Counted from the first letter of the stretch, positions 22,236 through 43,468 are shown. The stretch: 45,143 nt of DNA from Gammaproteobacteria bacterium (GCA_029862885.1 JAOTWM010000002.1:1-45143); one strand, 5' to 3'. Notes: generated from the sequence alone by a model not told the origin. Numbers and translations: made by a program.

Positions 22236-23804
22236 ATGAAAACGGCCTTCATTTCCTGCTTCGAAGTATCGGTTAAACGACCGCCAATTCACACGATCTT
22301 AGTTTTTTTGGCACTTAGTTTGCTCTCTTGCTCTAGGTTCGCTGCGGCAAGTGCGGCTGACGGTGAACCTGGCGACTTAAGTTGCGAGGGCTGCAATGTA
22401 CTGTTTTTAAACCTGGACTTTTTGAGGTCCGACTATACTGGCCTGATAAGTGACAGCAAGCACACGCCGAACATTGATCGGTTCTTCAAGAACTCGATCA
22501 TTTTTGAGAACGCGTTCTCGCCGGCGGGATCCTCGTATCGCGGAAACCTAGCCGTATTAACCGCGACGGACGCGCATATATACGGAGTCGATGTTCAAAG
22601 CTTTCATTTACTTAAGGCAAGGAAACAATTAGGGCCCTGGAAGAAGATCTATACCTATCATAAGACGATCGCCCAAGTGCTGTCTCGGCACGGGTACCGA
22701 ACAGTGAACCTGAATAAGGGCACTCGATCGGGACGCGGCACTTTTCTCGACCGTGGCTTTGACGAATATCAGCAGTTTCATATAAGGCTGACGATCGAAG
22801 ATCTCCTGCCGCCACTGGAGACGCATATCCGATCGACCCAAAAGCCATTCTTTATTCTATTCCATGCTGTACCTACTCGACTACACCGGGCATTTTACCC
22901 GTTAAATCGCGATCGAATTCTTGATAAGCATATTATTTACCAAGAGTATTCGATTCAGAATAGACCATACGGATACAAGGTGATACGTGACAGAAGTGCG
23001 TCTCCGCAAATACAACGAGAGACAGAACACAAGATTTATATGCAGCAATTGAAATATGCTGATGATACTCTCTCTAAACCGTTCGACATGCTGAGGGAGT
23101 TTGAACGCAATACTATTATCGTCTTGTATTCAAATCATGGAACACAGATCGGCGATAAGGGAATTTATGCCTCAAATGGCGTCTCATACCAGTCATCAGT
23201 TCGCGTTCCGCTGATGATAAAACATCCTAAGGTTAAGACACCTATGCGAATTGCTACGACAATTTCGCTCGTCGATCTTGTGCCGACGATCTATGAAATG
23301 TTGGGCGTGTTCAAACCCGGGCACTCAACTGGCCAAAGTCTAATTCCACTGATAAACGGTGAGGAGTATTACAAGGACTACATCGTTGGGAAAAACGATC
23401 CAGACGAATATATTCTGTCTGGAAAATGGAAGCTTATTATTCGATATCACAAAGAACGGCGGCTTTATAATCTTAAAGTCGACCCATTAGGTCGCGAAGA
23501 CCTTTCCGAAAAGCGGAAACTTATCGCGCGCAGGATGGAGTATCAATCGGTTATGGACCTGGACGAGAGTAAAACTATCGTCAACGACGAATGGAAACTT
23601 ATACTGACGCAGAAGAAGAATCTGGAACTATACGACCTTGACGCCGACCCTGACGAGTCCACTAACGTGGCGGCGGACTACCCAGAGGTTACCCGTACGC
23701 TTGAAGACAAGCTCATCGAATTCAAGCATCAAGCGAGACAACGGCGCATCGATATTATCGGAGACACGCTGAGAGATGGAAGTACAGGACAAGACGAAGA
23801 CTGA
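22236..23804 (+). CDS. Exported sulfatase-fold protein lacking the formylglycine cysteine (paralogue 1)
   Basis: A 522-residue alkaline-phosphatase/sulfatase superfamily protein with a signal sequence (LVFLALSLLSCSRFAAASA; an SC lipobox is also possible). The core follows sulfatases (TPNIDRFF, RGFDEYQQF, VRVPLMIKHP), but key sites differ. C-S-P-S-R is replaced by AGSSYRG. The metal pair DD becomes D-F in FLNLDFLRSD. GKWH becomes NKGTR, and SDHG becomes SNHG. A CEGC-N motif precedes the first strand. A Ser in the nucleophile position could act as in phospho- or glycerophospho-transferases, or the protein may be non-catalytic. The C-terminal subdomain (WKLI...LYNLKVDP) is repeated as WKLI...LYDLDADP. 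The next paralogue follows 58 bases on, apparently in the same operon. Confidence 0.75.
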   Translation: MKTAFISCFEVSVKRPPIHTILVFLALSLLSCSRFAAASAADGEPGDLSCEGCNVLFLNLDFLRSDYTGLISDSKHTPNIDRFFKNSIIFENAFSPAGSSYRGNLAVLTATDAHIYGVDVQSFHLLKARKQLGPWKKIYTYHKTIAQVLSRHGYRTVNLNKGTRSGRGTFLDRGFDEYQQFHIRLTIEDLLPPLETHIRSTQKPFFILFHAVPTRLHRAFYPLNRDRILDKHIIYQEYSIQNRPYGYKVIRDRSASPQIQRETEHKIYMQQLKYADDTLSKPFDMLREFERNTIIVLYSNHGTQIGDKGIYASNGVSYQSSVRVPLMIKHPKVKTPMRIATTISLVDLVPTIYEMLGVFKPGHSTGQSLIPLINGEEYYKDYIVGKNDPDEYILSGKWKLIIRYHKERRLYNLKVDPLGREDLSEKRKLIARRMEYQSVMDLDESKTIVNDEWKLILTQKKNLELYDLDADPDESTNVAADYPEVTRTLEDKLIEFKHQARQRRIDIIGDTLRDGSTGQDED

Positions 23805-23865
23805 GGTTTTTCCGGCACTACGTCATTGAGATCTAATCGTCTTGATATGGTAGGCGAGGATTATG

Positions 23866-25257
23866 ATGCCCGCTAACGCCAGTCTACAAATGGCTGCGGC
23901 ACTGATTGCCGGCGCATTACTGTTTGTATCGGGCTCCAGTAGCCGAGCCGACGGAGGAACCGATAGCCCATCGGTAGACGGCCAAGTAACGGGCAGCGAA
24001 TCGCTGGCAGCACTTGATTTATCCTGCCCCAATTGCAATGTGATTCTGCTCAATATAGAGCTGCTACGAGCGGATCACGTGGGATTGCTTAGTGGATCTA
24101 CGGATAGCGCAACGCCCAACATCGATAGTTTTTTTGGTCGCTCTATCGTCTTTGAGCAGGCATCCGCGCCAGCGGGTGAGAGTTACCGGAGCAATCTGGC
24201 CGTACAAACAGCCATGCACGCGTTTCACTATGACGCCGATCAGAGTGTTATCGATAAATTTGCGAAGCGTGGTGCCAAGGCATTACCACCTGAAGAGGCG
24301 CGGAAGATGGTGGCGATGCTTACTCGCTACCCGACGATGGCCGAAGTATTGAAGGAAAATGGTTACCATACCGTAAGCCTTAACCAAGGCATTCGTGCGG
24401 GGGAGCGATTGTTGCTTGACCGGGGTTTTGATCAGGCGATCGAATGGGGTCGCCGAAATACTTCATTTCGGGATACGGTCGCGGATCTTGGGAAGCGGCT
24501 CAGTACCGCTGATGGGAAATCATTTATTTTGTATCGTCCCGAAGGCCTCCATCCTTACCCCTACTATTATCCACCCGATCGACCGCGCGTTATCCAGGAA
24601 AATAAGATTCTTTATAAATATCGCCCGAGGTTCGGAAGGTTCAATGTCACGTTTAATGTGGCACTGCCCCAGCCCGAGCAGAGAAAGATTCATCGTTTGA
24701 TCTACCGCCAGCAGCTTAAGTACATCGATGAGGAACTGGGTAAGGTATTTGGGTTAATCAAGAAGGAGCAATTGAACCGATCCAGCGTAATTGTTTTGTA
24801 TGCGAATCACGGTAGCGGGTTAGGCGATAATGGCGTTCATCGACTGGCCGTATCCTACCAATCATGTATCCACGTTCCCTTAATAATATATCATCCAAAG
24901 ATAACTCGTCAGATCAGAGTATCTGACCCAGTAGCCCTTATTGACCTGGCGCCCACTATCTATGAGATCGTCGGTGCAAGTAATATTCCGCAATCTGACG
25001 GGCATAGTTTGATTCGTGACGACAGCACCAATAAAACGGATCTCATTGGTCGCAACGACATCGACGAATATATCCGGATGGATAATATGAAGCTAATAAT
25101 AAAGAATGCCGTTCAACGAGAGCTGTATGACTTACGTGTAGATCCTCATGAGAATGACAATTTGATCGACAGTTTACCTTCAGTAGCACGTCGACTGGAA
25201 GCGATTCTGCTGGCGAGGAAGATTCAACTATTGCAGAATGCACCCGAACGGCATTGA
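23866..25257 (+). CDS. Exported sulfatase-fold protein lacking the formylglycine cysteine (paralogue 2)
   Basis: A 463-residue paralogue. The signal peptide is MPANASLQMAAALIAGALLF..SSSRA. It is followed by a linker and the family mark LSCPNCNVILLNIELLRAD. The nucleophile segment reads APAGESYRSNLAV, the histidine site ANHGSGLGDNG, and the lysine site NQGIRAG, so the sulfatase Cys, the first metal Asp pair and the SDHG Asp are all replaced, as in paralogue 1. ATG at 23863 has GAGGA only two bases away. The adjacent ATG at 23866 has better spacing and is chosen. The substrate is unknown; export and gene neighbours point to a cell-surface sulfated or phosphorylated glycan. Confidence 0.75.
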   Translation: MPANASLQMAAALIAGALLFVSGSSSRADGGTDSPSVDGQVTGSESLAALDLSCPNCNVILLNIELLRADHVGLLSGSTDSATPNIDSFFGRSIVFEQASAPAGESYRSNLAVQTAMHAFHYDADQSVIDKFAKRGAKALPPEEARKMVAMLTRYPTMAEVLKENGYHTVSLNQGIRAGERLLLDRGFDQAIEWGRRNTSFRDTVADLGKRLSTADGKSFILYRPEGLHPYPYYYPPDRPRVIQENKILYKYRPRFGRFNVTFNVALPQPEQRKIHRLIYRQQLKYIDEELGKVFGLIKKEQLNRSSVIVLYANHGSGLGDNGVHRLAVSYQSCIHVPLIIYHPKITRQIRVSDPVALIDLAPTIYEIVGASNIPQSDGHSLIRDDSTNKTDLIGRNDIDEYIRMDNMKLIIKNAVQRELYDLRVDPHENDNLIDSLPSVARRLEAILLARKIQLLQNAPERH

Positions 25258-25286
25258 CTCACAATCACTGATTCTAGCCTGACTTG

Positions 25287-27362
25287 TCAATTCATAATTT
25301 CTTTCAGTACATGACCTTCAACAAACTCTGGTATTTCCCTGCCAAGCAACGACATGATAGTTGGATATTGATCCACGTGCTGAATAGGAGTCTCAATTTC
25401 ATAATTGCTCTTGATGCCGGGGCCCATGACGATGAAGGGCGTCCACATACCACTTTGATCGTCCGGTAACACGGCCTGTTTGTATCCGCTTGTTATAGAT
25501 GCGACGAAACTTTCAAGGTTCTGGCTAATATCCTCCACCCATCCATAGCCGACGTTGTTGGCAATTATCAAATCACCAACTCGATCGGGCGGTAAACCAA
25601 CAGACTCAGCGTCTTCCCACTTAGTAACACGGGCCAGCGGTTCTACTCCGGATTCATCCCTCAAGTCCTCAAGAATAGTAATTACATCATTCCTAAGCTG
25701 CTCATACTTTGGACCTGACGCACGCCTATAGTTTCCGCCCAACCCGGCGGGATTTATATAGATGTTATCCATCTTAAGAAACACGACCTTACTGTCTCGC
25801 CAGTTTATTTTATAGATCCCAGTGGACTCATCATATGAGTACTTCAGTAGCCCCTCTTTGGCGAAAATATTATTCAGTCTTACCTCAGTGTTTAACGGCA
25901 CAATTCCGTGATCCGAACTCAATATCACATAAGCGTCACCGTCAACTCGCTCCAATATTTCTCCAATAATTGCATCGATACCTTTGTATAGAATCTTCAC
26001 TTCTTGCCACAGCTTCTGCCGCTCTTCTTCGGTTATCTCGTTGTACCGGGTACTTTTTGGGTCAAGATAACCAAGCCACCAACGGCTAGTTAACATCTGA
26101 TTGGGTGTATACACATCGTGTATAATGACGTCGCTGCCCGTTTCTTCTATTAGGTAACCAGCTGCCTCCTTATGCCATTTAATACTCATCGCCGACTCTT
26201 CTAGAAAAGTTGATTTATCTTCATCGTAATAAATCAACTGTGGTGGAAAATTATCCGCGAAATCTACCATAGGACCAATTGACTCGCCCATGCTTGAGGC
26301 AATATGCGCCGGCTTTGTTACGTATTGGTTCATGTTGTCATATAAAAAACGAATCCGGAAAAAATCCTTTTCGCCAAGTTTTATCACTTTAACCCTTGCC
26401 TGAGTTTTGACGTCTATAGTTGCCAGTTCGCGCTCCCAATCCATCTTTTTGGGGCTAGTGATTTTGTAATCGTTATTGGTTTGATACTGAACAGTAAGGG
26501 GGGTCCAGTCGCTCCATTCGCCGACTCGTACCCGTGTCCATACATTATTTTTATCTGGGGAAAACAACACGCTATCGTAATTCTCCACTGAGTCATCGGT
26601 AGAATCGTAAATCAATCCAAACATGCTGGCACCCCAGTTGGATAGCAGCACTTCCCTTGCGGGACTGAAGCTTTGCGGGAGCGCGATCTGCCAGTCGGCC
26701 GGCTTCGCAACCGAGACGAATTTGGTCAATTCGGAACCAAGCTCAAATAGGCGGTTCCGGTGTCCCAGCGATGCACGTATATCGGTGTCCGTATTCGTGT
26801 GAAAGTTTATAGCGGGAAAATCAAGTCCCCAGCCGCCCCATCGGCCGCGAATCGTAATGCCGCGCGACAATTCCGGCGGCGTCGAGCCAGGAACGGATAG
26901 TAAGGTAACAACATCGCCTGCCTTTTCTAGTGTGAACCAGATCGGTGGTACTTTCTTGGCAACGGAGCTAAAACCACTTTTCGAAACGACATTAAGTGGA
27001 TAACCGCTTATCCGCATTGGTCCATCAGCGACACCATGGACTTTGGGAGTTGCACCCGTCAGTAAGGTGGCGAAATTGGTAGGCGTATGGCCTGGGAATA
27101 CCGGCACCGAATAACCGTAAGATCCACGATCCATCATCTTCTTGATATTCGGCAACTCGCCGTTGCTGGCCCACTCGAACACCTTGAAGACATGAGGATC
27201 TGCCCGAAAGCCATCCGGGATAAACCAGTACAGACGAATGGACTTTGCGACCGAGGGCGAATGATCGCCCACCTTAAGATTATCGACATCTGGAAGATTC
27301 CGGATGACTAGACCAGCAATTAGCGCTATGGCGATTGCTGCCGCGACAATGCGCCTATCCAT
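25287..27362 (-). CDS. Type I phosphodiesterase / nucleotide pyrophosphatase-like hydrolase, membrane-anchored
   Basis: A 691-residue alkaline-phosphatase superfamily protein. ATG at 27362 places a basic end and hydrophobic anchor (MDRRIVAAAIAIALIAGLVI) first; the track start at 27461 is less likely. The catalytic Thr motif is intact: VFPGHTPTNFATLLTGATPKVHGV, as in nucleotide pyrophosphatase/phosphodiesterase enzymes. Metal ligands appear in ILSSDHGIVPL. Unlike the nearby sulfatase-like paralogues, this active site looks competent. A large insertion (~residues 200-400) separates the two halves and may set specificity. It probably acts in the periplasm on a phosphodiester of a lipid, nucleotide sugar or polymer. 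It diverges from the BASS transporter gene and converges on paralogue 2. Confidence 0.75.
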   Translation of the reverse strand: MDRRIVAAAIAIALIAGLVIRNLPDVDNLKVGDHSPSVAKSIRLYWFIPDGFRADPHVFKVFEWASNGELPNIKKMMDRGSYGYSVPVFPGHTPTNFATLLTGATPKVHGVADGPMRISGYPLNVVSKSGFSSVAKKVPPIWFTLEKAGDVVTLLSVPGSTPPELSRGITIRGRWGGWGLDFPAINFHTNTDTDIRASLGHRNRLFELGSELTKFVSVAKPADWQIALPQSFSPAREVLLSNWGASMFGLIYDSTDDSVENYDSVLFSPDKNNVWTRVRVGEWSDWTPLTVQYQTNNDYKITSPKKMDWERELATIDVKTQARVKVIKLGEKDFFRIRFLYDNMNQYVTKPAHIASSMGESIGPMVDFADNFPPQLIYYDEDKSTFLEESAMSIKWHKEAAGYLIEETGSDVIIHDVYTPNQMLTSRWWLGYLDPKSTRYNEITEEERQKLWQEVKILYKGIDAIIGEILERVDGDAYVILSSDHGIVPLNTEVRLNNIFAKEGLLKYSYDESTGIYKINWRDSKVVFLKMDNIYINPAGLGGNYRRASGPKYEQLRNDVITILEDLRDESGVEPLARVTKWEDAESVGLPPDRVGDLIIANNVGYGWVEDISQNLESFVASITSGYKQAVLPDDQSGMWTPFIVMGPGIKSNYEIETPIQHVDQYPTIMSLLGREIPEFVEGHVLKEIMN

Positions 27363-27553
27363 AAATCGCGATACCAATCGGAAAATCGAAATTCGACATG
27401 CTAATTTTATCTGTACTCTCCCCCGAACTAACGATGACGTAGTCTGGGTTAGTTTGTACAATAAGAATTACATAATAGTGGCCACCGTTTCGCTTCGCGA
27501 AATCCAAAAATCGCAACGAACTATCGGCTAAATTTTGAATCAGCAGTCTAATT

Positions 27554-28471
27554 GTGACAAATATCTTCGGAATTCCAATTGTTATCGCAATCATTTTGGG
27601 GATTATCTTCCCATACACCGCTATTTCGTTAATGCCATACGGTGTTGCTTTTCTCTTTATACTGATGATGTCCGCAGGAATTACAATCGATTGGCGTAAG
27701 TTACGATATTTTACCTACCGCTTACCGGAATTGCTTATCGGACTAGTATTTTTATTTGCCATATTCCCAATAGGTCAATGGTTGATCGCTCGGTGGTTAG
27801 TTACCGACGACCAGTTTCTATATGGTTTAGTGTTTGCGTCGCTGTGTCCTGTTGCAATTGTCGCGCCGTACTTCAGTAATTTGATTGAGGCCGACGATGA
27901 ATTTGCGTTCGTCCTGATGATCTGGTCGATGATTCTTTGTCCGCTAATTGCGCCTATTATGTTGAAGATCTTACTGCAACCGTCGGTCGCTCTCAACGTG
28001 TTACCTCTTACCAAATACATGCTTCTCCTGGTGACTACGCCAATCGCATTGAGCTATGCGATAGATCGAGTATTCCCGAGGTGCAAAGTGATCTTACGAC
28101 CACTTTTGGGACTATTAAATATGGGTAGCCTAAGCGTCCTGATATTTATCCTTTTCGGCACTGCGGTGGGCCGCTTGAATCTTCACTACACCCCCATAAA
28201 TGACTTGTTTGTCTTGCTTTTTTTAATGTTTCTGCAAGATTTCGGGGTACTAGTCGTGGCCCGTCGAATATTCTCCTTCTGGCTTAGCCCTGAAATCGTC
28301 GGAGCACTTTCAATATCGCTGTCGATGCGAAACGTTGCCATAGCGGCGGGGGTGCTATTATTTTATGATCCCAAAGCGTCTTTTCCTGCGGCATTGGGCT
28401 TCATAGCCCACGCATTCTTGTTCACGTTCATTTCGATGCGCCGCAGGTCCAAGTGGTTCCGCCCCGTATAA
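27554..28471 (+). CDS. BASS-family (bile acid:Na+ symporter-like) transporter
   Basis: A 305-residue membrane protein with about nine to ten hydrophobic helices and the family's polar crossover regions, e.g. LVFASLCPVAIVAPYFSNLIEAD and ALSISLSMRNVAIAAGVLLF. BASS transporters move organic anions, including sulfated steroids in animals and small carboxylates in bacteria, driven by sodium. GTG at 27554 starts the first helix directly; no better start was found. The ~190-base gap to the divergent phosphodiesterase gene probably carries both promoters. The substrate is unknown; the neighbours make an organic sulfate or phosphate a reasonable guess only. Confidence 0.7.
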   Translation: MTNIFGIPIVIAIILGIIFPYTAISLMPYGVAFLFILMMSAGITIDWRKLRYFTYRLPELLIGLVFLFAIFPIGQWLIARWLVTDDQFLYGLVFASLCPVAIVAPYFSNLIEADDEFAFVLMIWSMILCPLIAPIMLKILLQPSVALNVLPLTKYMLLLVTTPIALSYAIDRVFPRCKVILRPLLGLLNMGSLSVLIFILFGTAVGRLNLHYTPINDLFVLLFLMFLQDFGVLVVARRIFSFWLSPEIVGALSISLSMRNVAIAAGVLLFYDPKASFPAALGFIAHAFLFTFISMRRRSKWFRPV

Positions 28472-28540
28472 GGTAATTTCGCGTTGCAGGCAGAGTGTGC
28501 GACGCTTGCGTAGGAACTTAGCTCGCCTGGCTATTTGCGG

Positions 28541-29176
28541 TTATGGCCTCCACCTTCGCATGCTCGGAGGACCATGCGACGGAGATTTTCTCTTCACATT
28601 TGGGTATGGATTGCGAGAATCCAACTCCAGAAACTCGGATAACTTCTCCGCTTTATTCGGATCCGAAAGATCGATGGCCAGTAATTGGTCCGAATAATTC
28701 ACAAAGAATGATAGCACCTCGTCGACATGCTGCCGGTGGATATTTTGCAACAGCACGCGATCCTTGGCGCTGACAACCGATAGTTCCGAGGACGCATAGT
28801 TGTTATACTGAAGATACTCGTAAGGATCGAGTCGCCTAGTTCTTCGGTTCTTTAGTTGCCAATGTCGCGCCACAGATTCCCACCATTGGTCGCTATCCCG
28901 GGTAACCAATACGAATCTGCTCTCCTTGTAGCGTCGGTGTAACTCCGTATACAAAGCAGGGAACGGTACATCGGTAAAAGCGTCATGCGATTCGATTACC
29001 GGTGCTAGGGTATCGACCACCAGCTTCTTGCTGGTCAGGCATGTGCCGCACATTTTTTCGTAATTAACGCCATTCACCGAGTGCGGCCAATGTATGGAGC
29101 GAAATCCCACACTCCGAAAAAAACGATTCAGACTTTTGGTTCCTGTTTTCTGAAACCCAATACCGAATACCTTCAT
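28541..29176 (-). CDS. Sulfotransferase family protein (Sulfotransfer_4-like)
   Basis: A 211-residue cytosolic PAPS-dependent sulfotransferase. The 5'-phosphosulfate loop is GIGFQKTGTKSLNRFF at the N-terminus. The 3'-phosphate motif is FVLVTRDSDQWWESV near residue 95, with the Arg and Ser ligands in place. The short length and the F-x-K-T-G-T-K-S-L signature fit the P-loop sulfotransferase group often annotated Sulfotransfer_4. It is expected to transfer sulfate to a carbohydrate or small acceptor. It diverges from another sulfotransferase gene across 165 bases. Confidence 0.8.
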   Translation of the reverse strand: MKVFGIGFQKTGTKSLNRFFRSVGFRSIHWPHSVNGVNYEKMCGTCLTSKKLVVDTLAPVIESHDAFTDVPFPALYTELHRRYKESRFVLVTRDSDQWWESVARHWQLKNRRTRRLDPYEYLQYNNYASSELSVVSAKDRVLLQNIHRQHVDEVLSFFVNYSDQLLAIDLSDPNKAEKLSEFLELDSRNPYPNVKRKSPSHGPPSMRRWRP

Positions 29177-29341
29177 GATCTCACATCAAAAGAAGATGGT
29201 TGAAGCGGCGAGCACCGCCCAAAGACAATAACCCATTCCACATGCCGAGCAATAGCCCTTGACGGTCCAAGTCCAACTTTAGAAAATGAGCTGCAGACAT
29301 CTGCCACGTGTATTTCGATCGCGAACCCCGTCCACGAAGCA

Positions 29342-30088
29342 ATGATTTCCAAGAAATTCAATTGCCTGTTTGTCCATATACCCAAAACCGCAGGCGAAAG
29401 TATAGAGCGATATTTCATGAAGTTACAGAATCTAACCTGGAATGAACGCTCCGAATTGCTAATTAGCAGGAATCATGACGTGGACTCCGGCCCACCTAGA
29501 TTGGCCCACTTGATGGCCTCCGAGTATCTTAATTACGGTCACGTGGGTGAAGTGGAATTTCGCGATTTTTTCAAATTTGCCATCGTTCGCAATCCCTGGG
29601 AAAGATTAGTGTCGGAATTTTTCTTTAATCACTACGGCCGTTACGAGTTTAAAGTATTTATCTTTGACAGATTCCCAACCGCGATCGACGACGATTACAA
29701 GACGGGATCCGACAGATTTCGTCACATCATACCGCAGTACGATTTTCTTCACGACGAGGAAGATCGGTGTCTGGTCGATTTCATCGGCAGATTCGAGTCG
29801 TTGGGTTCGGATTTTGAAAGGGTCTGCCGACGCCTGAATTTGCCGGTAAAACCGCTAGAGAAACTAAACAGCTTCGAGCGGTTAATGGTACGTCGGCTTC
29901 ACAAATCTGGAAAGCTCAAGACCGGCCAGAAAGTCCAAGTCGAGAAACCGCATTATTCTCAATTTTATGATGACGAGAGTCGAGAGTGGGTGGCAGAGAT
30001 GTACGCAAAGGATATAAAAACCTTCAATTATCAATTCGAGCGGGGTGCCAGGGGTACACGTCCTGTCGTCCGAGTGGTGCGCAACTAA
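29342..30088 (+). CDS. Sulfotransferase family protein (Sulfotransfer_2-like)
   Basis: A 248-residue sulfotransferase with CLFVHIPKTAGESIERYF as the phosphosulfate loop and FKFAIVRNPWERLVSEFFF as the 3'-phosphate site. These match the Sulfotransfer_2 family of carbohydrate sulfotransferases (chondroitin and heparan type in animals). There is no signal peptide, so it would work in the cytosol on nucleotide- or lipid-linked sugars. The fragment at the left window edge carries the same type of loop (HIPKAAGTTF). It converges tail to tail with the next gene, four bases apart. Confidence 0.85.
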   Translation: MISKKFNCLFVHIPKTAGESIERYFMKLQNLTWNERSELLISRNHDVDSGPPRLAHLMASEYLNYGHVGEVEFRDFFKFAIVRNPWERLVSEFFFNHYGRYEFKVFIFDRFPTAIDDDYKTGSDRFRHIIPQYDFLHDEEDRCLVDFIGRFESLGSDFERVCRRLNLPVKPLEKLNSFERLMVRRLHKSGKLKTGQKVQVEKPHYSQFYDDESREWVAEMYAKDIKTFNYQFERGARGTRPVVRVVRN

Positions 30089-30091
30089 CTT

Positions 30092-30676
30092 CTAATACTT
30101 ACAGTCGATCGTATCGACAAGGGGAGCTCTGGCACTACCACTGTCTAAGGATCGAAAGTGATCGATTTCGAACATTGTCGTGTAATCAGCACAATACAGG
30201 AATGCGTTAACGGCCGAGTATTTAATATCCTCCTCCGAACATGCGCCGGCGGAGAACCTTTCGTTCGCAAATCCAACAAAGTAGCGCAGGTGCCCACCAT
30301 CGACTGCCTTCTCGAAGAATTTCGGCTTAAAGCTATCGGGGCACTCAATATATTCGGTGTGCTGCCCTCGGTACCCTACTCTCTGCTTCTCAAATAGAGC
30401 GCGGAATACGGCGACTTTCTGTACGATCAGCGCATCAGCTACGGACTGATCGATTCCGGTAACCTCCGTCACATTTAATTTTTCGTTCTCGCCAAGATAC
30501 TCTAAGAACGCGATATTGTCCCCATAAGTTGTACGGGAGAATCGGTATCCCCAGAACGAATCGCCCGCCGGGAGAGCGTCGCCTCGCTTTGTGTAATAAA
30601 CCAACACCAGACCCACGGTCGCGACGAGAACGACAATCGGTAATGCTATGACCAACAGTTTGCGTCTCAGAGTCAC
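30092..30676 (-). CDS. Hypothetical single-pass membrane or exported protein
   Basis: A 194-residue protein starting with GTG. A basic N-terminus and one hydrophobic segment (LLVIALPIVVLVATVGLVLVYY) are followed by an extracytoplasmic domain of ~160 residues with four cysteines (ECPDSF, GACSEED, LYCADY and DCKY). No family is recognised. It may be a bitopic anchored protein whose domain is stabilised by two disulfides. It lies between the sulfotransferase pair and the third sulfatase-like gene. Confidence 0.55.
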   Translation of the reverse strand: MTLRRKLLVIALPIVVLVATVGLVLVYYTKRGDALPAGDSFWGYRFSRTTYGDNIAFLEYLGENEKLNVTEVTGIDQSVADALIVQKVAVFRALFEKQRVGYRGQHTEYIECPDSFKPKFFEKAVDGGHLRYFVGFANERFSAGACSEEDIKYSAVNAFLYCADYTTMFEIDHFRSLDSGSARAPLVDTIDCKY

Positions 30677-30708
30677 GATGGCTATAAGTTGGGAATCCGG
30701 GAGGTTAT

Positions 30709-30855
30709 ATGGCCTCTAACGATAGTTTTAATCGAGTCCGTGGCGTTGTCGGTCAAGATGCTACCGGTCGACTCGTGATGTGGGACGAAATGCGGACAAG
30801 TAGTAACTATTCGGTGGTGTCCTTTACCGAAGGCCATACAATTCGGCTGTCATAG
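30709..30855 (+). CDS. Possible small ORF (48 aa)
   Basis: Not in the track. ATG at 30709 follows GGGAGG at a four-base spacing and reads MASNDSFNRVRGVVGQD ... to TAG at 30853. It is divergent from the 30676 gene and its 3' end points toward the convergent sulfatase-like gene. The protein is soluble and unrecognised. It could equally be a decayed gene end or chance, because only the ribosome site supports it. Confidence 0.3.
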   Translation: MASNDSFNRVRGVVGQDATGRLVMWDEMRTSSNYSVVSFTEGHTIRLS

Positions 30856-30872
30856 ACTGGGCCTGTACGCAC

Positions 30873-32153
30873 TTAGTGACGAGCATATTTTATCTTATGG
30901 TTCAGCAAAGTAGCCTCTAGCCTATTGGCGATAATAGGCTCCTTTAAGTATAAGTCGATGGATTCGTGTGGGTCCGATTTTATATTGAATAATAATTTAA
31001 ATCGTCCGTACCGAACAATCAATTTCCATGGGCCGATACGGATGTATTCGTCCCAATTGTTTTTCCCAATAAGAACTTTCTCCTCGGTGTTACGGCCACT
31101 CAGTACATCAAAAAGGTGGTCGTTGGAGATAGGTGTTGCCCACGGTATTTCGAGCATCTTATATATTGCGGGGGCGAGATCCGCTAGAGCAACGGCACTC
31201 GGTACGCGAACAGTTATACTTATTTTCGGATGTAGTATAAGAATTGGAACGTGAACACACGACTGATATGCGACCCCATGCTTAAAAATCCCATTATCGC
31301 CCAATCCGGTTCCGTGGTTGGCATAGAGAACTACGATGCTGTTGTCGTTATAACGCTCCTGTAATACCTTAAATACTCGACCAAGTTGTGCGTCTGCGTA
31401 GCTTAGTTGTCGACTGTAAATATGTCGTTCTATTTGTTGCGCTCGTTCAGGCTCAAGATCTCTCTGCCTTTTCAAGAAATATGCGTATCTGTTCGTTCCA
31501 TTAGGAGCTTGATATTCATAGCGGCGGGCATTAATTGAAGATGCATACTCAGTGTCGGGTTGTATCGGATGTCGATATTGATGATTATGTAATAACGTCG
31601 GGCGAAATAAAACAAATCTTGGGTGATCGCTCGGTCGTTCGAGTTTGTCGATTAGAAGATCGACAAGGTCTTCCATCAAGATTTTTGATGACCACTGCGA
31701 GTAGTCGGCAAATCCCCTATCCAGGAAGACATGTTGGCCCGCCCGACCGCCTTGATTGATATTTATCGTGTGGTATCCGTGTTGCGAGAGAACTTGAGCC
31801 ATGGACACGGAGCTAGTGAGCGACTTCTCGATTTTCAGTTGCTTGATAAGATCGAGTTTCTTGTACCGATCGATTTCCGCAGGCATTACAGGAATCTGGT
31901 GGGGCAATGTTAAGGTCAGTACTGAAGTATTGCTTAGGAATGTCTCCCCTGCCGGGGCGGAGGCATCCTCGAATACTACTCCGTGTTCAAAGAACGCATC
32001 GATATTTGGCGTTAAATCTGCGTTGCTGATAAGTCCGGTAAAGTCTGCTCTTAGTAATTCAATATTCAAGAAGATTACATTGCAACCACGGCAAGCCAAA
32101 TCGCGCGGTGCGCCAGCGGCATCGGGGCTGCCAAAGAGCGTACTCGAATTCAT
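30873..32153 (-). CDS. Sulfatase-fold protein lacking the formylglycine cysteine and signal peptide (paralogue 3)
   Basis: A 426-residue paralogue of the genes at 22236 and 23866, with RDLACRGCNVIFLNIELLRAD, APAGETFLSNTSV, NQGGRAG and ANHGTGLGDNG. The nucleophile position now holds Thr, and even the downstream Arg is Leu. The ORF opens at MNSSTLFGSPD with an in-frame TAG two codons upstream, so no signal peptide is available. It is either cytosolic or has lost its export signal. It lies 132 bases downstream of the ABC ATPase gene on the same strand, so it may be the last gene of the sulfonate-type importer operon and process the imported compound. It has one C-terminal WKLI...FNIKSDP unit, unlike the duplicated one of paralogue 1. 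Confidence 0.72.
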   Translation of the reverse strand: MNSSTLFGSPDAAGAPRDLACRGCNVIFLNIELLRADFTGLISNADLTPNIDAFFEHGVVFEDASAPAGETFLSNTSVLTLTLPHQIPVMPAEIDRYKKLDLIKQLKIEKSLTSSVSMAQVLSQHGYHTININQGGRAGQHVFLDRGFADYSQWSSKILMEDLVDLLIDKLERPSDHPRFVLFRPTLLHNHQYRHPIQPDTEYASSINARRYEYQAPNGTNRYAYFLKRQRDLEPERAQQIERHIYSRQLSYADAQLGRVFKVLQERYNDNSIVVLYANHGTGLGDNGIFKHGVAYQSCVHVPILILHPKISITVRVPSAVALADLAPAIYKMLEIPWATPISNDHLFDVLSGRNTEEKVLIGKNNWDEYIRIGPWKLIVRYGRFKLLFNIKSDPHESIDLYLKEPIIANRLEATLLNHKIKYARH

Positions 32154-32285: not shown

Positions 32286-33047
32286 TCACCTCGACGATAG
32301 CATGGACTGGATTTTGTCAGTCCAGTAGTCGTTTCGTTCTTTATCCAATTTGGAATACTCGCAGTCATCGTCGGATAACAAATCACACGGAACAACATCG
32401 CCAGGCCCTCGCAATACCAACACAAAGCTACTGAGCATGACGGCCTCTCGAATATCATGTGTTATCAGCACGGTACGTGAATTGATCCGAGCGATGGTTT
32501 GACGGAAGTAGCGTTGAACTACATTCTTTGTATCCTGGTCCAGCGAACCAAAGGGTTCATCCATTAGCACACATAATGGGTCCACCGCGAGCGCACGCGC
32601 CAATCCGACTCGCTGCTGCATTCCACCAGACAGTGATTTTGGATAAAGCCCTTCAGTGCCTTCTAATCGCATTGTCTTCAATATCTCGCGCGCACGTTGG
32701 TTTCGCTCCCCATTTGGTAAACCTTTCGCTTTTAAGCCAAACTCAACATTCTCTAACACATTTTTCCATGGATACAAATTATGGTCTTGAAATACCACCG
32801 GGCGAGCAGCGGATGGGCCCATCACCTTATCGCCGCAAATCGATATGGCACCTGCATCTGCTGATGAAAAACCGGCGAGCAACGCTATTAATGTGGATTT
32901 ACCGACACCACTTTGACCGACAACCGCCAATACCATATGGCGGTCATCCAGCGTTAACGATAGATCGCTAAAAATCGGCATGCCGGGATACGAAAAATCG
33001 ACATTGTCGATCTGCATCCAGACTTCTGGGGAACTTCCTTCAGCCAT
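32286..33047 (-). CDS. ABC transporter ATPase, nitrate/sulfonate/taurine type
   Basis: A 253-residue ATPase with Walker A VGQSGVGKST, Q-loop VFQDHNLYPWKNV, signature LSGGMQQRVGLARAL, Walker B VLMDEPFGSLD and H-loop LITHD. The PW after the Q-loop and the overall length are typical of the TauB/SsuB/NrtD group. The last ~30 residues are acidic and lack the further regulatory domain seen in NrtC. It overlaps the permease gene by eight bases. It energises import of the ligand bound by the protein encoded two genes upstream. Confidence 0.88.
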   Translation of the reverse strand: MAEGSSPEVWMQIDNVDFSYPGMPIFSDLSLTLDDRHMVLAVVGQSGVGKSTLIALLAGFSSADAGAISICGDKVMGPSAARPVVFQDHNLYPWKNVLENVEFGLKAKGLPNGERNQRAREILKTMRLEGTEGLYPKSLSGGMQQRVGLARALAVDPLCVLMDEPFGSLDQDTKNVVQRYFRQTIARINSRTVLITHDIREAVMLSSFVLVLRGPGDVVPCDLLSDDDCEYSKLDKERNDYWTDKIQSMLSSR

Positions 33048-33786
33048 CGTCCCGCCAATGGCTTAGTCGTAAATCAATTCGCTGCAGGAGGAAGTTACTC
33101 ACATAACCAAGCATGCCGATTACTAGCAGGTAGGAATACAATTTTTCCATTTCGATATTCAGACTGAACAATTGAATGCCATAACCCAACCCACTTGAAG
33201 CTCCCATCATTTCTGCCGCAACAACACAAAACCAGCCGAGGCCGACCCCCAGTCGCAACCCATGGAATGCGTAGGGAAGAGCCGATGGGACGATCACGTC
33301 TGTGAGCTGCAGCAGTTTCCCACAACCGAAGCTTTCAGCAGCGAGGATATGGGATCGCTTGACCTCCATCAAACCTTGCTGAATACCCAACCATATCGGG
33401 AAAAACGCGCCCAGTGCGACTATTGCTATCGCCGGTTGAGTACCCACACCGAATGCAACGATGGCGAGGGGTGTCCAAGCGATCGGTGGAATAGGCCGGA
33501 ACAATTCAATGCCGCCCGATAAGTAGTCGGGAAACGACCTCCAGTATACCGCGACTAAGCCTAGTACCGCCGCGAGTAAAGAGCTAATCGCGACACCGGC
33601 CAACACCCGAAAAAGGCTCGCAAAAGCATCCTTTAGTAATATTCTCGAACGCAGTAACTCCAAAAAGCTCCAGAGCACATCATTTAATGGAGGAGTGAGC
33701 ACATTATTTTTTGATGTTGATAAATGCCACGCTAGCAAAATCACGCACACTCCGACGCTTGCTCGCGCTTGCTGGGGTAGCTTCAT
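33040..33786 (-). CDS. ABC transporter permease, TauC/SsuC type
   Basis: A 248-residue inner-membrane permease with about six helices. The family's cytoplasmic coupling loop is visible as ILAAESFGCGKLLQLTDVIVPSALPY, and the segment IPPIAWTPLAIVAFGVGTQPAIAIVALGAFFPI is characteristic of taurine/sulfonate/nitrate permeases. ATG at 33786 is 38 bases after the binding-protein stop, and the 3' end overlaps the ATPase gene, so all three form one operon. Confidence 0.88.
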   Translation of the reverse strand: MKLPQQARASVGVCVILLAWHLSTSKNNVLTPPLNDVLWSFLELLRSRILLKDAFASLFRVLAGVAISSLLAAVLGLVAVYWRSFPDYLSGGIELFRPIPPIAWTPLAIVAFGVGTQPAIAIVALGAFFPIWLGIQQGLMEVKRSHILAAESFGCGKLLQLTDVIVPSALPYAFHGLRLGVGLGWFCVVAAEMMGASSGLGYGIQLFSLNIEMEKLYSYLLVIGMLGYVSNFLLQRIDLRLSHWRDDG

Positions 33787-33824
33787 CTATCAAGATTCCC
33801 GAGGTCATCCAGTTAAATGAGAGT

Positions 33825-34865
33825 CTAATTTCGTATTTCGATGTTTTCCAAAATGCCACTCTGATCGGCCTCAGAAATAATCTCTTTCATTATTCCAAGG
33901 TCAGTGTACGCTCTCGCATCTATCGGAGACTTTATGATATTGCGCTCAACAAGGAACCGACTGGCCTGGTCGAATATCTCAAAATCTTCGGGAATAAAAT
34001 CAAATCGCAATTCTTGAATGGAGTGGACCCACCGATTCGGTTCGACGGAAGCCGCATCATCAAGCACTGCATCGCTAACATGCAATCTCGATTCAGTCGA
34101 GAAGTATTGGTTAAGAAAACCCGGATTATTTGCAAAGATATGCCAGCTCAATCTGAACGCAGACAAAAATGATTTCAGTTTCTCCCGGCGCTTACTTAAC
34201 ATTTCCGCAGTCGCGATAACCACAGAAACCACCTTTCCACAATGAAGTATTTTAGCTTTGCCTTGTTCTTCGAACACCGCCGGCAGTGGATCGAACCCGT
34301 AAAGCGCATCGACTCCGGGCCAAGTGGAGTTATCCTTTATGTTTGCAAGTAGCGCCGATTGTTGGGACATGTCGAGCTTTCCAGTACGAATGCCGGACAA
34401 GTCAATACCTGCAGTGGCAATAGCGGACATGGCAACTCGCTCCGCCGCAGCACCAACGGGTCCCATTATTGTTTTGTTTGCCAACTCGGTTAGAGCATTG
34501 ACGCCAGAACCAACCGGTACATATATGCAGACCCGGTTATACATCATTCTAGCCACAATCCGATAGGTCGGATCCTTCGAGAGCAATACCAGTGCAGGTT
34601 GGTCGGCCGTTAACAGAACATCCACCTCACCAGCCAGTGCAGCTCGATTCAGCGGCCCACCATAGGCAAATCCTATGTATTCAACTTCTAAATCCACTAG
34701 CTGCGGGATATTCGTATGCTTAAGGCCCATGACTAGCTGCCCTTGCGTCGCCCAGGGGATTTGCCAGCCAAGCCGCAATGCAGGCGAACCTTCCGCCACA
34801 ACGGTCATTGCATAGCCGCAACCAATACAAAAAAGCAGCATTTGACTACAGAGTTTTCGCATCAT
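33825..34865 (-). CDS. ABC transporter substrate-binding protein, sulfonate/taurine (NMT1/THI5-like) type
   Basis: A 346-residue periplasmic binding protein. The ATG pair at 34865/34862 precedes a good signal peptide (RKLCSQMLLFCIGCGYAMTVVA), so the track start at 34940 is rejected. The core resembles SsuA/TauA/NMT1 proteins: LRLGWQIPWATQGQLVMGLK, GGPLNRAALAGEVDVLLTADQPA and NKTIMGPVGAAAERVAMSAI. The ligand cannot be read from sequence: sulfonates, sulfate esters, nitrate or pyrimidine-like compounds are all used by relatives. Given the sulfatases and sulfotransferases around it, an organosulfur ligand is the best guess. It diverges from a sulfotransferase gene over 145 bases. Confidence 0.82.
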   Translation of the reverse strand: MMRKLCSQMLLFCIGCGYAMTVVAEGSPALRLGWQIPWATQGQLVMGLKHTNIPQLVDLEVEYIGFAYGGPLNRAALAGEVDVLLTADQPALVLLSKDPTYRIVARMMYNRVCIYVPVGSGVNALTELANKTIMGPVGAAAERVAMSAIATAGIDLSGIRTGKLDMSQQSALLANIKDNSTWPGVDALYGFDPLPAVFEEQGKAKILHCGKVVSVVIATAEMLSKRREKLKSFLSAFRLSWHIFANNPGFLNQYFSTESRLHVSDAVLDDAASVEPNRWVHSIQELRFDFIPEDFEIFDQASRFLVERNIIKSPIDARAYTDLGIMKEIISEADQSGILENIEIRN

Positions 34866-35010
34866 AAGAATGGTTCCGGGCCTCAAGTGAATTGCGGTTC
34901 GATTTTCCTGATATATTAGTCTATCTCGGCACCTGAACAAACTGAACTTCCGCTCAATAGTTACCGAGGGAGGCTGTACTAATCGTTATTCAACAATTTT
35001 GAAACGCTCG

Positions 35011-36925: not shown

Positions 36926-37729
36926 CTATGGTATTTCGCCGCCATAACTGACACCGGATAAAATAGTTTGAAGTTCGGTCGCTGAAATATACTGCCATGC
37001 TTTGTGAACCCCAACAGGCGAAGGATGATAGATTCGCTCTACAGCAAATCGACGTGCCAATTCAACAGAAGGTAGGTGATACTTGTCGGGCATGAGGTGC
37101 ATATTGATCGAGTAAAACGCATCTTCAGATCCAATAATCCATGGATTTGCGTTGCTGGCTTTACATACCTCAATCATCGCCATTTTGCGTCTCACTGACA
37201 GTCCACCGCTCCCGAAAAGACACCATGGGGAAATCACACTATCCGGCCATGGTGCGCCGACGTAGTCATACTCCAGGAATGCTTCTACTTCATTGGAACA
37301 TAGCATAGAGTCGGAATTGAAAAATAACTGAACCTCGCCCTTGATGGATTTCCAGAAGCCTACTTTTCGTTTTACTGTATCTGCAAAGTCTCTTCCCGAT
37401 TCTTGCAACCCCACCGGTAAACTGTTTATGTGTACGTACTGCCAGCCACTCAGGACTTTCATTATCCAATCCCTCATATCCCGAGAAACGAATACCTGTA
37501 GACCCCATTCTTCTCCAAGGAAAAACATGATGTTACGGATCGCGAATTCCGTAAATGGAGATCGCTTCGTTTCGATAAAGACCGCAAATTTGTTGGAATT
37601 GATTGGGATGCCCGTGAAATCGACCGCGCGTAAGGCCGGTAGCATTTCATTGATGTGGTGGCGACGAACACCTAATGCTTCACTGACTTCTCTTGGATCC
37701 CGCTCCGACATTTGGTCAGTGAAATCCAT
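36926..37729 (-). CDS. DUF5672 protein, putative glycosyltransferase-like (copy 2)
   Basis: A 267-residue protein with the DUF5672 core. FFNSDSMLCSNEVEAFLEYDYVGAPW has the D-x-D-like acidic pair and the family's Y-x-G-A-P-W. GSGGLSVRRKMAMIEVCKA, GSEDAFYSIN and VGVHKAW follow. DUF5672 proteins are linked to GT-A glycosyltransferases, but their reactions are largely undescribed. It is the last gene of a four-gene minus-strand operon and begins six bases after its paralogue. An N-terminal ~45-residue segment is unique to this copy. Confidence 0.75.
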   Translation of the reverse strand: MDFTDQMSERDPREVSEALGVRRHHINEMLPALRAVDFTGIPINSNKFAVFIETKRSPFTEFAIRNIMFFLGEEWGLQVFVSRDMRDWIMKVLSGWQYVHINSLPVGLQESGRDFADTVKRKVGFWKSIKGEVQLFFNSDSMLCSNEVEAFLEYDYVGAPWPDSVISPWCLFGSGGLSVRRKMAMIEVCKASNANPWIIGSEDAFYSINMHLMPDKYHLPSVELARRFAVERIYHPSPVGVHKAWQYISATELQTILSGVSYGGEIP

Positions 37730-37735
37730 TAGATG

Positions 37736-38524
37736 CTAGTACTCTATCGTAGACAGTAATTGCCGCACTTGCTCGGTGGGTAAATACTTCCACAGTTTGT
37801 GCAAGCCCAGGGGGTTTGGGTCATAGACACCCTCGACTGCAAATCGCTTCGCCTGCTCATAGGTGCCCAGTTTAAAAGTTCCCGGTTCTTTCGCGTTACA
37901 TAGAGACATATTGACGCAAAAGAAAATATCCTCCGGCTCAAATAATGAATGATGCGGATTGGCGACAGCAGCGATTCGCAACATTGCAGATCTACGTCGC
38001 AGCGATAGGCCACCATTGCCGACTCGACAGGCCGGGGAAACTGCAAATTGTTTGCCCCACGGAGCGCCTATATAATCAAGGTGCATAAACTCATCAATGC
38101 CCGTGCGGCGAAATATACTGTCCGGCTCCATCCAGAGAATGTGCCCGGTCCGGATTTGCTCCCAGAATGTGTATTGTTTTTTTAAGGAATTGTAGTCACG
38201 CGTACTCAAATCATTGGTATCCAGTTTTTCGATGCCGACATAACCCCAAGATCGAGTTAGTTCCTTAATGTACGAAAAGTTATCCGGCCCAGTGAAAATC
38301 TCTAATCCCCACTCCGGTCCAAGAAAGTACATGGCGTTGCGTAACACATATTCGAGATGGGGATGCTTTCTTGGCTCAACTAACACGACGCTGCGCTGAG
38401 AGTCTTTTGGAATCGACGGCCGAGGCAGCTGCCGGACTATCGGATACGTGCGTTCTATAAACTCATTCCAAATCTGATAGTTCGTTTCTTCCCGCAGCCT
38501 GGATCGACTAATCGCCTCACTCAT
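37736..38524 (-). CDS. DUF5672 protein, putative glycosyltransferase-like (copy 1)
   Basis: A 262-residue paralogue of the neighbouring gene, sharing LWMEPDSIFRRTGIDEFMHLDYIGAPW, VGNGGLSLRRRSAMLRIA, PEDIFFCVNMSL and LGLHKLWKYL. ATG at 38524 overlaps the stop of the upstream TPR-glycosyltransferase gene as ATGA; the track start at 38545 lies inside that gene. The coupling argues that the DUF5672 protein works with the TPR enzyme, perhaps extending or capping the sugar it adds. Confidence 0.78.
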   Translation of the reverse strand: MSEAISRSRLREETNYQIWNEFIERTYPIVRQLPRPSIPKDSQRSVVLVEPRKHPHLEYVLRNAMYFLGPEWGLEIFTGPDNFSYIKELTRSWGYVGIEKLDTNDLSTRDYNSLKKQYTFWEQIRTGHILWMEPDSIFRRTGIDEFMHLDYIGAPWGKQFAVSPACRVGNGGLSLRRRSAMLRIAAVANPHHSLFEPEDIFFCVNMSLCNAKEPGTFKLGTYEQAKRFAVEGVYDPNPLGLHKLWKYLPTEQVRQLLSTIEY

Positions 38525-40095
38525 GGCGCCCTCGCTTTTGGGCAACCGGAGATTTCAGCTTTCAGCGCGTTGGCGATTTGACCTACAACGCTGTCCCAGT
38601 CGCCGTGTCTCGGCTGTCGAAATAATCGCATGCTTGGATACCAAGGGCTATCGGTACGGTTCTGCAAATATCGCCAGCAATGCGCAAACCACAACATTGT
38701 CCATACTGGCTTACCTAACGCCCCGGCCAAATGTGCGGTCGCGGTATCGACTGTTATTACCAAATCCAGCGCCTCAATAAGAGCTGCAGTATCGCCGAAG
38801 TCGCGAAGTTCTTCGGTGAAGTCAATGATCTTAAGTTGTTTCGGGCCGCCTTGCAGCTGCTCGGCTGCAGGCCCAACTTGTATACTGTAAAATGCTGAAC
38901 CATCGACAGCCGCTAACGGCGCCAACGCTGACAGCGGGCACGACCGATATTTGTTGTCCTTCTGTCCCGGATTACCGGCCCACACCAGACCCACCGTAAT
39001 ACGCTCTTTTTCTAATTGCCCTCGCCAAGCGTCCACCTTCGAGCTATCTGCTCTCAAGTAGGGGGTCACACGCGGGATCGACTCTAATGTTGTGCCGAAC
39101 ACCCTTGGTAGGCTCAGCAAAGGTATCTGCACGTCGTAATGGATTCTCTCTATAGCCTCCGGTGTCTTGCACTTATCGACCAATCGATGGACTGCCGTGT
39201 TTCTCTCGAACAATGAATGCAATGACGCATCGCACATAAACACAATTTGACCGCCACGTTCCGCGACCATGGGCAGGTATCGTGAAAAGTGAATTACATC
39301 GCCGATGCCCTGTTCGCCATACACCAACAGGGTTTTACCGCAAAAATCGCTTCCGTCCCAGCGTGCTCGGCCCGAGCAACGGAATAATTCGAATGACGCA
39401 TCGGATTGGCGAAATTCGTAATCGTCCCAACCCTCGGCAAGTCGGCCCAATTTCAAGAGGGCCGAACCTCTGCCGATATGAGCATCGGCATAATCCGGAT
39501 TTCGCTTTAGCGCCTCTCCATAAGCGTCGATCGCTTCCTCTAGCCTTCCTGTATATTGCAGGCAGTTTGCCAACTGGTAGTGCGCCTGAGTCCAGTCGTC
39601 GTCGAGCTCGATAGCGTGACGAAATGCCACAACAGCATCTTCGAACCGATCTTGAATCCAACACGCATTGCCCAGGTTGAAATACGCCTGTACAAATTCA
39701 GTATCGAGACTCGCCGCCAGTTGAAATTCCGACCACGCATCGGCGACTCGACCTTGATTCCAATAGGCATTACCGAGATCGTTGTGATACACCGCAAGAT
39801 CCGGCCGTATTGCCACCGCACGCTCAAGATACTCTAGGACTTTTTGTCGATTCTCCTGCTTTCTACCGCCTAACAACGCTAGGCCGAGCAAGTGATTTGC
39901 ATCCGGATTCTTATCGTCGAGCTGCAACACTTCTTCATACAAGGCTATCGCTTTTGTCAAACGGCCGGCCCGATGATGATTAACTCCCTGGCGGAGGCGG
40001 TTCGCGATACTGTCGTTTTTTGGTGCTGTGCCTATATTTAGATTCGGCACACCGTTAAGAGGTTCGTCCGCATTAGAATCCATCGGATTCGACAT
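38521..40095 (-). CDS. TPR-repeat glycosyltransferase (GT9/GT41-like), shorter copy
   Basis: A 524-residue protein. About five to six TPR units (e.g. AVYHNDLGNAYWNQGRVADAWSEF, WTQAHYQLANCLQYTGRLEEAIDAY) occupy residues ~30-210. A GT-B-type domain follows: LLVYGEQGIGDVIHFSRYLPM, VGLVWAGNPGQKDNKYRSC, ALIEALDLVITVDTATAHLAGALGKPVW. This order resembles bacterial O-GlcNAc-transferase-like and heptosyltransferase-related proteins, which may glycosylate proteins held by the TPRs. The domains look complete. It lies in an operon after its longer paralogue (41-base gap) and overlaps the DUF5672 gene. Confidence 0.85.
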   Translation of the reverse strand: MSNPMDSNADEPLNGVPNLNIGTAPKNDSIANRLRQGVNHHRAGRLTKAIALYEEVLQLDDKNPDANHLLGLALLGGRKQENRQKVLEYLERAVAIRPDLAVYHNDLGNAYWNQGRVADAWSEFQLAASLDTEFVQAYFNLGNACWIQDRFEDAVVAFRHAIELDDDWTQAHYQLANCLQYTGRLEEAIDAYGEALKRNPDYADAHIGRGSALLKLGRLAEGWDDYEFRQSDASFELFRCSGRARWDGSDFCGKTLLVYGEQGIGDVIHFSRYLPMVAERGGQIVFMCDASLHSLFERNTAVHRLVDKCKTPEAIERIHYDVQIPLLSLPRVFGTTLESIPRVTPYLRADSSKVDAWRGQLEKERITVGLVWAGNPGQKDNKYRSCPLSALAPLAAVDGSAFYSIQVGPAAEQLQGGPKQLKIIDFTEELRDFGDTAALIEALDLVITVDTATAHLAGALGKPVWTMLWFAHCWRYLQNRTDSPWYPSMRLFRQPRHGDWDSVVGQIANALKAEISGCPKARAP

Positions 40096-40136
40096 TCCTC
40101 GTTAGCAATCAATAGAATTCGGATTTCGTAAATATG

Positions 40137-43171: not shown

Positions 43172-43468
43172 ATTCGACCTCACGATAGCGCATTCAGGTG
43201 ATTGTGATGCGAGTCCAACCGTTTGAAGGTTAACGCATTTCTTGACATATGTATATATTTCGCGCAATTTGCCAAAATTATGGCCGATATGCCTACATGA
43301 GATATAAGTTATTGAAAATAATTGTTTATTTAGAGTGGCTCGCCGCTGTCTACAAAGTATGAGACGGCCACTAAGACCGTTTGCATCGATGCATAGGTGC
43401 GCTCTTTACATCGCTACTGATCGGTGCGCGCACCCATCGCATCGACTTCTGGCACCTTCTCGATACGC
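43172..43468. other. Divergent promoter region; no gene seen
   Basis: About 300 bases between the secreted-protein gene (minus) and the nucleotide-sugar dehydrogenase gene (plus). The half next to the secreted-protein gene is AT-rich (atatgtatatatttcgcg, gaaaataattgtttatttag), as expected for promoters. No repeat, RNA gene or small ORF with a ribosome site was seen. Confidence 0.4.

Follow-up and report, generated by a model that had tools for sequence, protein, structure and literature searches.

Three sulfatase-fold proteins, A, B and C, encoded in a 45,143-nucleotide stretch of gammaproteobacterial DNA (hereafter the window) fall into a single monophyletic group within the alkaline-phosphatase superfamily, distinct from the formylglycine sulfatases. 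We call its members NHG proteins, after the Asn-His-Gly found where sulfatases have Asp-His-Gly (DHG). They are accompanied by a phosphodiesterase-like PF01663 protein and by a small exported protein, and together the three kinds of protein look like an undescribed cell-surface module present in a few bacteria and tiny archaea.

All three reading frames are open at the positions given in Table 1, that of B from an ATG at either 23863 or 23866. Each protein covers the full PF00884 model (E 1e-19 to 1e-25; 71–91 bits against a cut-off of 25), and A is 39–40% identical to B and to C. The unusual marks that a sequence-only reading had attributed to these three paralogues are all present. A CxxCN (CEGCN in A, CPNCN in B and CRGCN in C) precedes the first core strand, a further segment reads NLDFLRSD in A and NIELLRAD in B and C, the nucleophile segment reads PAGSSY, PAGESY and PAGETF, respectively, an N-x-G-x-R block is present, and the SDHG position is occupied by SNHG in A and ANHG in B and C. 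Judged from the alignment, these marks exceed chance. Of 22 PF00884 matches in the window's genome, only A, B and C fit the NHG-family profile along the length of that profile. An AlphaFold2 model of B built from 17 sequences (pLDDT 86.7, pTM 0.86) found its best Foldseek matches among S1 sulfatases (7stv, E 1.4e-21, TM 0.62); by this model, protein B has the sulfatase fold. The orthologues of C have an N-terminal signal or anchor. Window C has no signal peptide because an in-frame stop lies two codons 5' of its ATG, and this copy may therefore be impaired or its sequence faulty. A possible hydrophobic segment precedes the stop, as could result from truncation or a sequence error.

Table 1 Features of the window and of related loci (L numbers); positions without an L number refer to the window.
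Feature	Position	Strand	Basis
Kinase-like gene, kept upstream of A in L054 and L065	20257..21258	+	
GT2-like glycosyltransferase, kept upstream of A in L054 and L065	21332..22114	+	
Protein A, NHG-clade sulfatase-fold, 522 aa, signal/lipobox-like N-terminus	22236..23804	+	ORF, PF00884, tree
CxxCN of A, residues 50-54	22383..22397	+	
PAGSS of A, S100 at nucleophile position	22521..22535	+	alignment
NHG of A, residues 300-302	23133..23141	+	
Protein B, NHG-clade sulfatase-fold, 464 aa	23863..25257	+	ORF, PF00884, tree, AF2 model
CxxCN of B, residues 55-59	24025..24039	+	
PAGES of B, S107 at nucleophile position	24169..24183	+	alignment
NHG of B, residues 315-317	24805..24813	+	
PF01663 phosphodiesterase-like partner, 724 aa	25287..27461	-	
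BASS (SBF) family transporter, adjoins PF01663 gene also in L065 and L133	27554..28471	+	
Small exported partner, 194 aa, follows C	30092..30676	-	
Protein C, NHG-clade sulfatase-fold, 426 aa, no in-frame signal peptide, stop just upstream	30873..32153	-	
CxxCN of C, residues 21-25	32079..32093	-	
Region with the in-frame stop preceding C and, before it, a possible hydrophobic segment	32153-32230	-	
ABC importer next to C, likewise in L065 and L113 (ATPase, permease, SsuA-like binding protein)	32286..34940	-	
Two sulfotransferase-family genes; also next to ABC genes in L113, not in L065	34999..36878	+	
Two DUF5672 proteins and TPR-glycosyltransferase genes	36926-42149	-	
The same, G466	L113 3-2310		
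Exported Cys-containing protein	42626-43267	-	
Exported Cys-containing protein	L065 74-976	-	
Kinase-like gene, other loci	L054 1122-2099; L065 1188-2177		
Archaeal modules	L055 5303-11881; L057 578-3913; L114 1544-6521		
Archaeal module	L117 5319-1444	-	
Small exported family, other loci	L055 7371-8045; L057 2580-3128; L114 3576-4115; L117 2835-3404; L129 6380-6916		
Shared C-terminal domain of about 115 residues	L055 8057-11881 and 17223-17789; L115 1078-2997		
Sister tandem pair (G501)	L105 / L135 3059-5845		
Putative small-protein homologue (G501)	L135 5882-6415		by eye
PF01663 gene (G501)	L135 6390-8378		
PF01663 and small-protein genes in lipoate context (G872)	L129 2203-8946		

Relatives were sought in the named genome contigs, in the window's order and class, in the locus-bearing genomes, and in the archaeal phylum and order. 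The full motif set occurs in three copies in a gammaproteobacterial MAG (G466; L054 and L113), in two copies in G016 (L065), which belongs to the same order as the window, in three copies in a Nanoarchaeota MAG (G465; L055), and in two archaeal genomes with two copies and one copy, respectively (G475, L114; G853, L117). G467 (L057) has a partial copy. In a maximum-likelihood tree of 38 proteins, composed of 14 full or nearly full NHG sequences, an outgroup and canonical sulfatases, the 14 proteins form one clade with 100/100 support. Orthologues of A are found in L054 and L065, of B in L054, and of C in L113 and L065. In the tree the archaeal copies sit outside the bacterial ones, and identities between the two sides are 31–47% (about 31–38% in the comparison with the 46–50% of the PF01663 partner). 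The marks are thus neither confined to the window's locus, as they recur in three bacterial and three archaeal genomes, nor carried by proteins that nest among ordinary sulfatases, and the earlier view that the changes are concerted and not random decay is borne out by an independent clade.

The clade is rare. It occurs in 2 of 109 genomes in the window's order, in 4 of 145 in the archaeal order sample, and in 1 of 369 in the class-wide sample, where no other genome has an NHG protein. Viral contigs scanned with A2 as the query gave no relatives. Phage tblastn returned weak matches only, to the C-terminal half at 34–38% coverage, and plasmid tblastn returned weak matches with 24–32% identity among the matches listed; none of either was shown to be a clade member. 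A search of the open-access literature found no description of the NHG clade or of the three-gene module.

Columns are numbered here as in protein B, residues 66, 107, 315 and 316 were placed by alignment, and percentiles give column conservation over the 14 clade members. At the aligned formylglycine position the clade has Thr (12/14) or Ser (2/14), compared to Thr in 13/13 outgroup proteins and Cys in 11/11 canonical sulfatases; the Ser/Thr nucleophile suggested by the sequence-only reading appears plausible, since one of the two residues is present in 14/14. Ligand 1 (column 66) is Glu in 11 proteins and Asp in three. The Asp of DHG is replaced by Asn in 12 and by Thr in two, next to a His that is invariant (14/14). 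The [SA]NHG noted earlier therefore holds for A, B and C, and its Asn for 12 of the 14; the exceptions, STHG and STHA, are the A orthologues of the two other genomes. The [CS]-x-P-x-R signature of S1 sulfatases, as defined in PMC5066984, is absent from all 14, which have [ST]-x-x-[SG]-[NL] instead, with Asn or Leu for the Arg. The GKWH or G-K-x-[WMY]-H block is replaced by an N-x-G-x-x-[SA]-G-like block, and its Lys is lost throughout. E66 lies at the 85th percentile, S107 at the 87th, N315 at the 90th and H316 at the 99th. Clade-specific invariant residues include N64, G105 and G176, and the set CxxCN, N64, G105-x-[ST], G176 and [NT]H is complete in 14/14.

It could be argued that these are ordinary sulfatases with scattered substitutions or decay, given the Pfam name Sulfatase, a genome rich in such proteins (the 22 matches above) and a signal peptide that window C may have lost. 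With no nucleophile Cys in any of the 14, the CxPxR Arg and GKWH Lys gone in all, and a tree in which NHG proteins do not nest among canonical sulfatases, this explanation is highly improbable, and on the tree and the motif table we reject both it and random decay. A PF00884 match does not equal a sulfatase call, as is seen again here.

Not all of the marks define the clade. CxxCN is invariant within it, yet it is also found in 9 of the 13 outgroup sulfatase-like proteins and is therefore a mark of the parent group; the proposed co-occurrence of CxxCN, PAGx[ST] and NHG describes a real clade, of which CxxCN is not diagnostic. Likewise, the residues said to replace the D-D pair, D/E plus a hydrophobic residue, are in place, but in the near outgroup the counterpart of this pair is usually D-T. 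Together with a Thr nucleophile in 13/13 outgroup proteins, this means that both changes are older than the clade. The D-D of the formylglycine sulfatases, the comparator used in the sequence-only reading, was therefore the wrong starting point, and the parent is the Thr-nucleophile wing of PF00884. As one part of our overall explanation, to which as a whole we assign an even chance, the NHG clade may have its origin among the “sulfatase-like hydrolase/transferase” proteins of small archaea and CPR bacteria, which have CxxCN and a Thr nucleophile.

Of the outgroup proteins, a tandem pair (L105 of G501) stands closest in the tree, joined to the clade at 89/58 support only. Both copies have Glu at ligand 1 and a Thr nucleophile. 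One copy reads SNHG and the other SDHG; the Asp-to-Asn change may predate the clade or may have arisen twice. On the same contig the pair is followed by a putative homologue of the small exported protein, assigned by eye from the pattern F-x-S-I-F...P-Y-P-G...C-P-x-E-F...G-x-C-S-x-D-L, and then by a PF01663 gene. Since the sister pair has both partners, the partnership predates the clade and the Asp-to-Asn change. It would have begun with Thr-nucleophile proteins of a more ordinary site, which favours an enzyme origin of the NHG clade.

These partners, missed by the sequence-only reading, are a stronger functional clue. The PF01663 and small exported proteins are encoded in all seven clade-bearing genomes (G000, G016, G466, G465, G467, G475 and G853), and in the NHG locus itself wherever its flanks can be read. 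In the archaea the PF01663 gene comes first, then the small-protein gene and then the NHG gene or genes, all overlapping or nearly so. In the window and in L065 the NHG, PF01663 and small-protein genes share one cluster with kinase-like, GT2-like and BASS genes and an SsuA-like ABC importer. The G466 assembly is broken into short contigs. There the small protein begins 25 bases after C on one contig, a second has A and B along with the kinase-like and GT2-like genes, and the PF01663 gene adjoins the BASS gene on a third, as in the window. PF01663 proteins of bacteria and of NHG-bearing archaea are 46–50% identical, and eight homologues have 185 invariant columns, including D83, N129, T132, D517 and H518. 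Among 145 genomes of the archaeal order, NHG proteins occur in four, the small protein in five and the PF01663 protein in six, in nested fashion, in genomes that are related so that the counts are not independent. L129 has both partners and no NHG gene nearby, and L130 has the PF01663 gene alone.

The small exported protein (~190 aa) has no match in Pfam or NCBIfam, and no other genome in a class-wide sample of 229 encodes it. Its family is about 180–220 aa long, with conserved Cys residues and the pattern F-x-x-[LI]F...Y-x-G...C-x-[DE]...G-x-C, and its gene always adjoins the PF01663 gene where seen in archaea. The AlphaFold2 model was poor (pLDDT 65.8), and Foldseek found nothing below E 0.01; START/Mog1-like matches were set aside on both counts.

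Several features of the surroundings are recorded here as observations. The product of the kinase-like gene, kept upstream of the GT2-like gene in three loci, matches protein kinases weakly and is possibly a pseudokinase, as visual inspection does not reveal the usual catalytic HRD and DFG motifs. In the archaeal genome G872 the PF01663 and small-protein genes lie beside lipoate ligase-, lipoyl synthase- and H-protein-like genes and a gene for a thioredoxin-like membrane protein that also adjoins the partner pair, a lipoate context seen in this one genome only. Exported Cys-containing proteins of no family are encoded near the clusters of the window and L065, with a twin-arginine-like start, “LPAHAQT” and a similar C-terminus (GxVTLRF..G.CxCS). 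Next to the cluster, G466 shares with the window two DUF5672 proteins and TPR-glycosyltransferase genes, and the conserved locus therefore extends well beyond the NHG module.

The explanation that we prefer, and that we think as apt to be wrong as right, is that the module is a surface-anchored, single-metal Ser/Thr group-transfer enzyme or hydrolase acting on the envelope, and not a sulfatase. The NHG proteins would be exported, mostly lipid- or membrane-anchored, and would form a surface module by physical partnership with the PF01663 and small exported proteins. One metal ion, held by Glu/Asp66, Ser/Thr107, Asn315 and His316, would activate Ser/Thr107, which would take up a charged group as a covalent intermediate, most likely phosphoryl or phosphodiester and possibly sulfuryl. 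The acceptor of this group would be a glycan or lipid of the envelope, or else water, as in LtaS, EptA/MCR-1 and YejM. Consistent with an enzyme, Ser/Thr, Glu/Asp and His316 are each present in 14/14, in columns conserved across the bacterial–archaeal split, and Thr is retained in the sister pair, which has the same partners and in one of its copies also DHG. Evidence against comes from the replacement of the DHG Asp by Asn or Thr, from the missing GKWH Lys and CxPxR Arg, and from the STHG and STHA of the A orthologues.

Alternatively, the NHG proteins may be non-catalytic pseudo-sulfatases that bind an envelope ligand or serve as regulatory or scaffold partners of the PF01663 protein, to which the chemistry would be left. 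A metal ligand is lost (Asn in 12/14) and is eroded further in the A lineage (Thr in 2/14, with HG changed to HA once), whereas the partner keeps D83, N129, T132, D517 and H518 in 8/8 homologues and is far better conserved. The distribution of NHG genes is that of an add-on, as the PF01663 protein occurs without them (L129, L130), and window C has no export signal. We regard the non-catalytic explanation as doubtful, yet as a serious rival because of the further erosion in the A lineage and the missing export signal of window C. A pure binding protein, however, would not need Ser/Thr107, Glu/Asp66 and His316, which are invariant in kind throughout the clade, and the sister pair with the same partners retains an ordinary-looking Thr/DHG site in one copy.

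The glycan-type context of the NHG genes provides leads. The bacterial clusters have the GT2-like gene and, in the window and L113, TPR-glycosyltransferase and sulfotransferase genes. Two L055 NHG copies carry a C-terminal domain of ~115 residues without a Pfam match. A solo protein matches this domain at 44% identity, and a large hydrophobic protein in the same locus matches it with its C-terminus at 34–37%. N-glycan sulfation in Halobacterium salinarum requires the sulfatase-fold proteins VNG1056C and VNG1057C (PMC11980604), and the NHG proteins could be glycan sulfotransferase-like enzymes of this kind, working with the nearby sulfotransferases and SsuA-like importer. The sulfotransferase genes and SsuA-like binding protein in the clusters of the window and L113 fit this idea, as does the domain that the two L055 copies share with other proteins of a glycan-type locus. 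There are no sulfotransferase genes beside the archaeal modules or in L065, and we consider such a role improbable.

Under the preferred group-transfer or hydrolase explanation, a sulfatase active site has been rebuilt stepwise, from Cys to Thr in the parent group and then from Asp to Asn. Bacteria and archaea alike have kept the rebuilt site, and the change was therefore selected for and is not a product of decay. It is tied to two partner genes, one from a family without any annotation, a link through which the function of proteins currently called “sulfatase” can be put to the test. More speculatively, and with rather low confidence in the combined proposal, the three components may form a surface complex found in small archaea and in a few Gammaproteobacteria. 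Its sulfatase-fold members, with a metal site made of Glu, Ser/Thr, Asn and His, would perform together with the phosphodiesterase-like partner a group transfer new to either family.

Among known systems, the formylglycine sulfatases (SulfAtlas S1) share the overall fold and the C-terminal half with the NHG proteins, which differ in having no Cys/Ser-x-P-x-R, GKWH Lys or DxG Asp. A survey of those enzymes puts the conservation of the DxG Asp and the Arg at about 99%, and its authors do not accept Thr-bearing PF00884 proteins of the TxNxE type as sulfatases unless experiment supports it (PMC5066984). VNG1056C and VNG1057C are comparable as sulfatase-fold proteins to which a transferase function in glycosylation of the archaeal surface is ascribed; the literature searched reports no similar module that includes a PF01663 protein. 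The PF01663 partner keeps the core of the nucleotide pyrophosphatase/phosphodiesterases (D83, T132, D517 and H518 in 8/8), with weak local similarity only to solved members, and H695 is not conserved in L129 and L130. The archaeal/CPR group (L056, L058, L101, L105 and L111), itself uncharacterised, resembles the NHG clade in its fold, in having CxxCN ahead of the first strand and Thr at the nucleophile position, and in Asp/Glu at ligand 1. It differs in mostly keeping DHG (10/13) and in lacking N64, PAG-x-[ST] and the N-x-G block.

The closest functional parallels are the phosphotransferases and phosphatase LtaS, EptA/MCR-1 and YejM. Enzymes that use a Thr nucleophile and a single metal, with Glu or Asp as ligand 1, have been described (PMC7576196, PMC5031297). 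In LtaS the metal lies near Thr300 and is held with Glu255, Asp475 and His476, with EptA and MCR-1 alike (PMC7576196), and Thr285 of MCR-1 is required for function (PMC5031297). YejM functions with Asp268, Thr302 and an Arg at the position of the others' His (PMC7576196), and therefore changes of ligand need not abolish activity. By alignment the NHG clade likewise has Thr (or Ser) at the nucleophile position and Glu or Asp at ligand 1, and a single metal site and envelope substrates would also be common to both. NHG proteins have no multi-helix membrane domain, and the Asp-His pair of LtaS, EptA, MCR and YejM is not found in them, being Asn-His or Thr-His. The NCBIfam models for LtaS, EptA and YejM score at most 24 bits against cut-offs of 500–970, so NHG proteins are not members of those families. 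Their residues suggest instead that they resemble the Thr-nucleophile wing of PF00884 with one ligand changed. The fold and the Thr-nucleophile logic are already known; apparently new, at least to us, are an Asp-to-Asn variant kept across domains and its conserved two-partner module.
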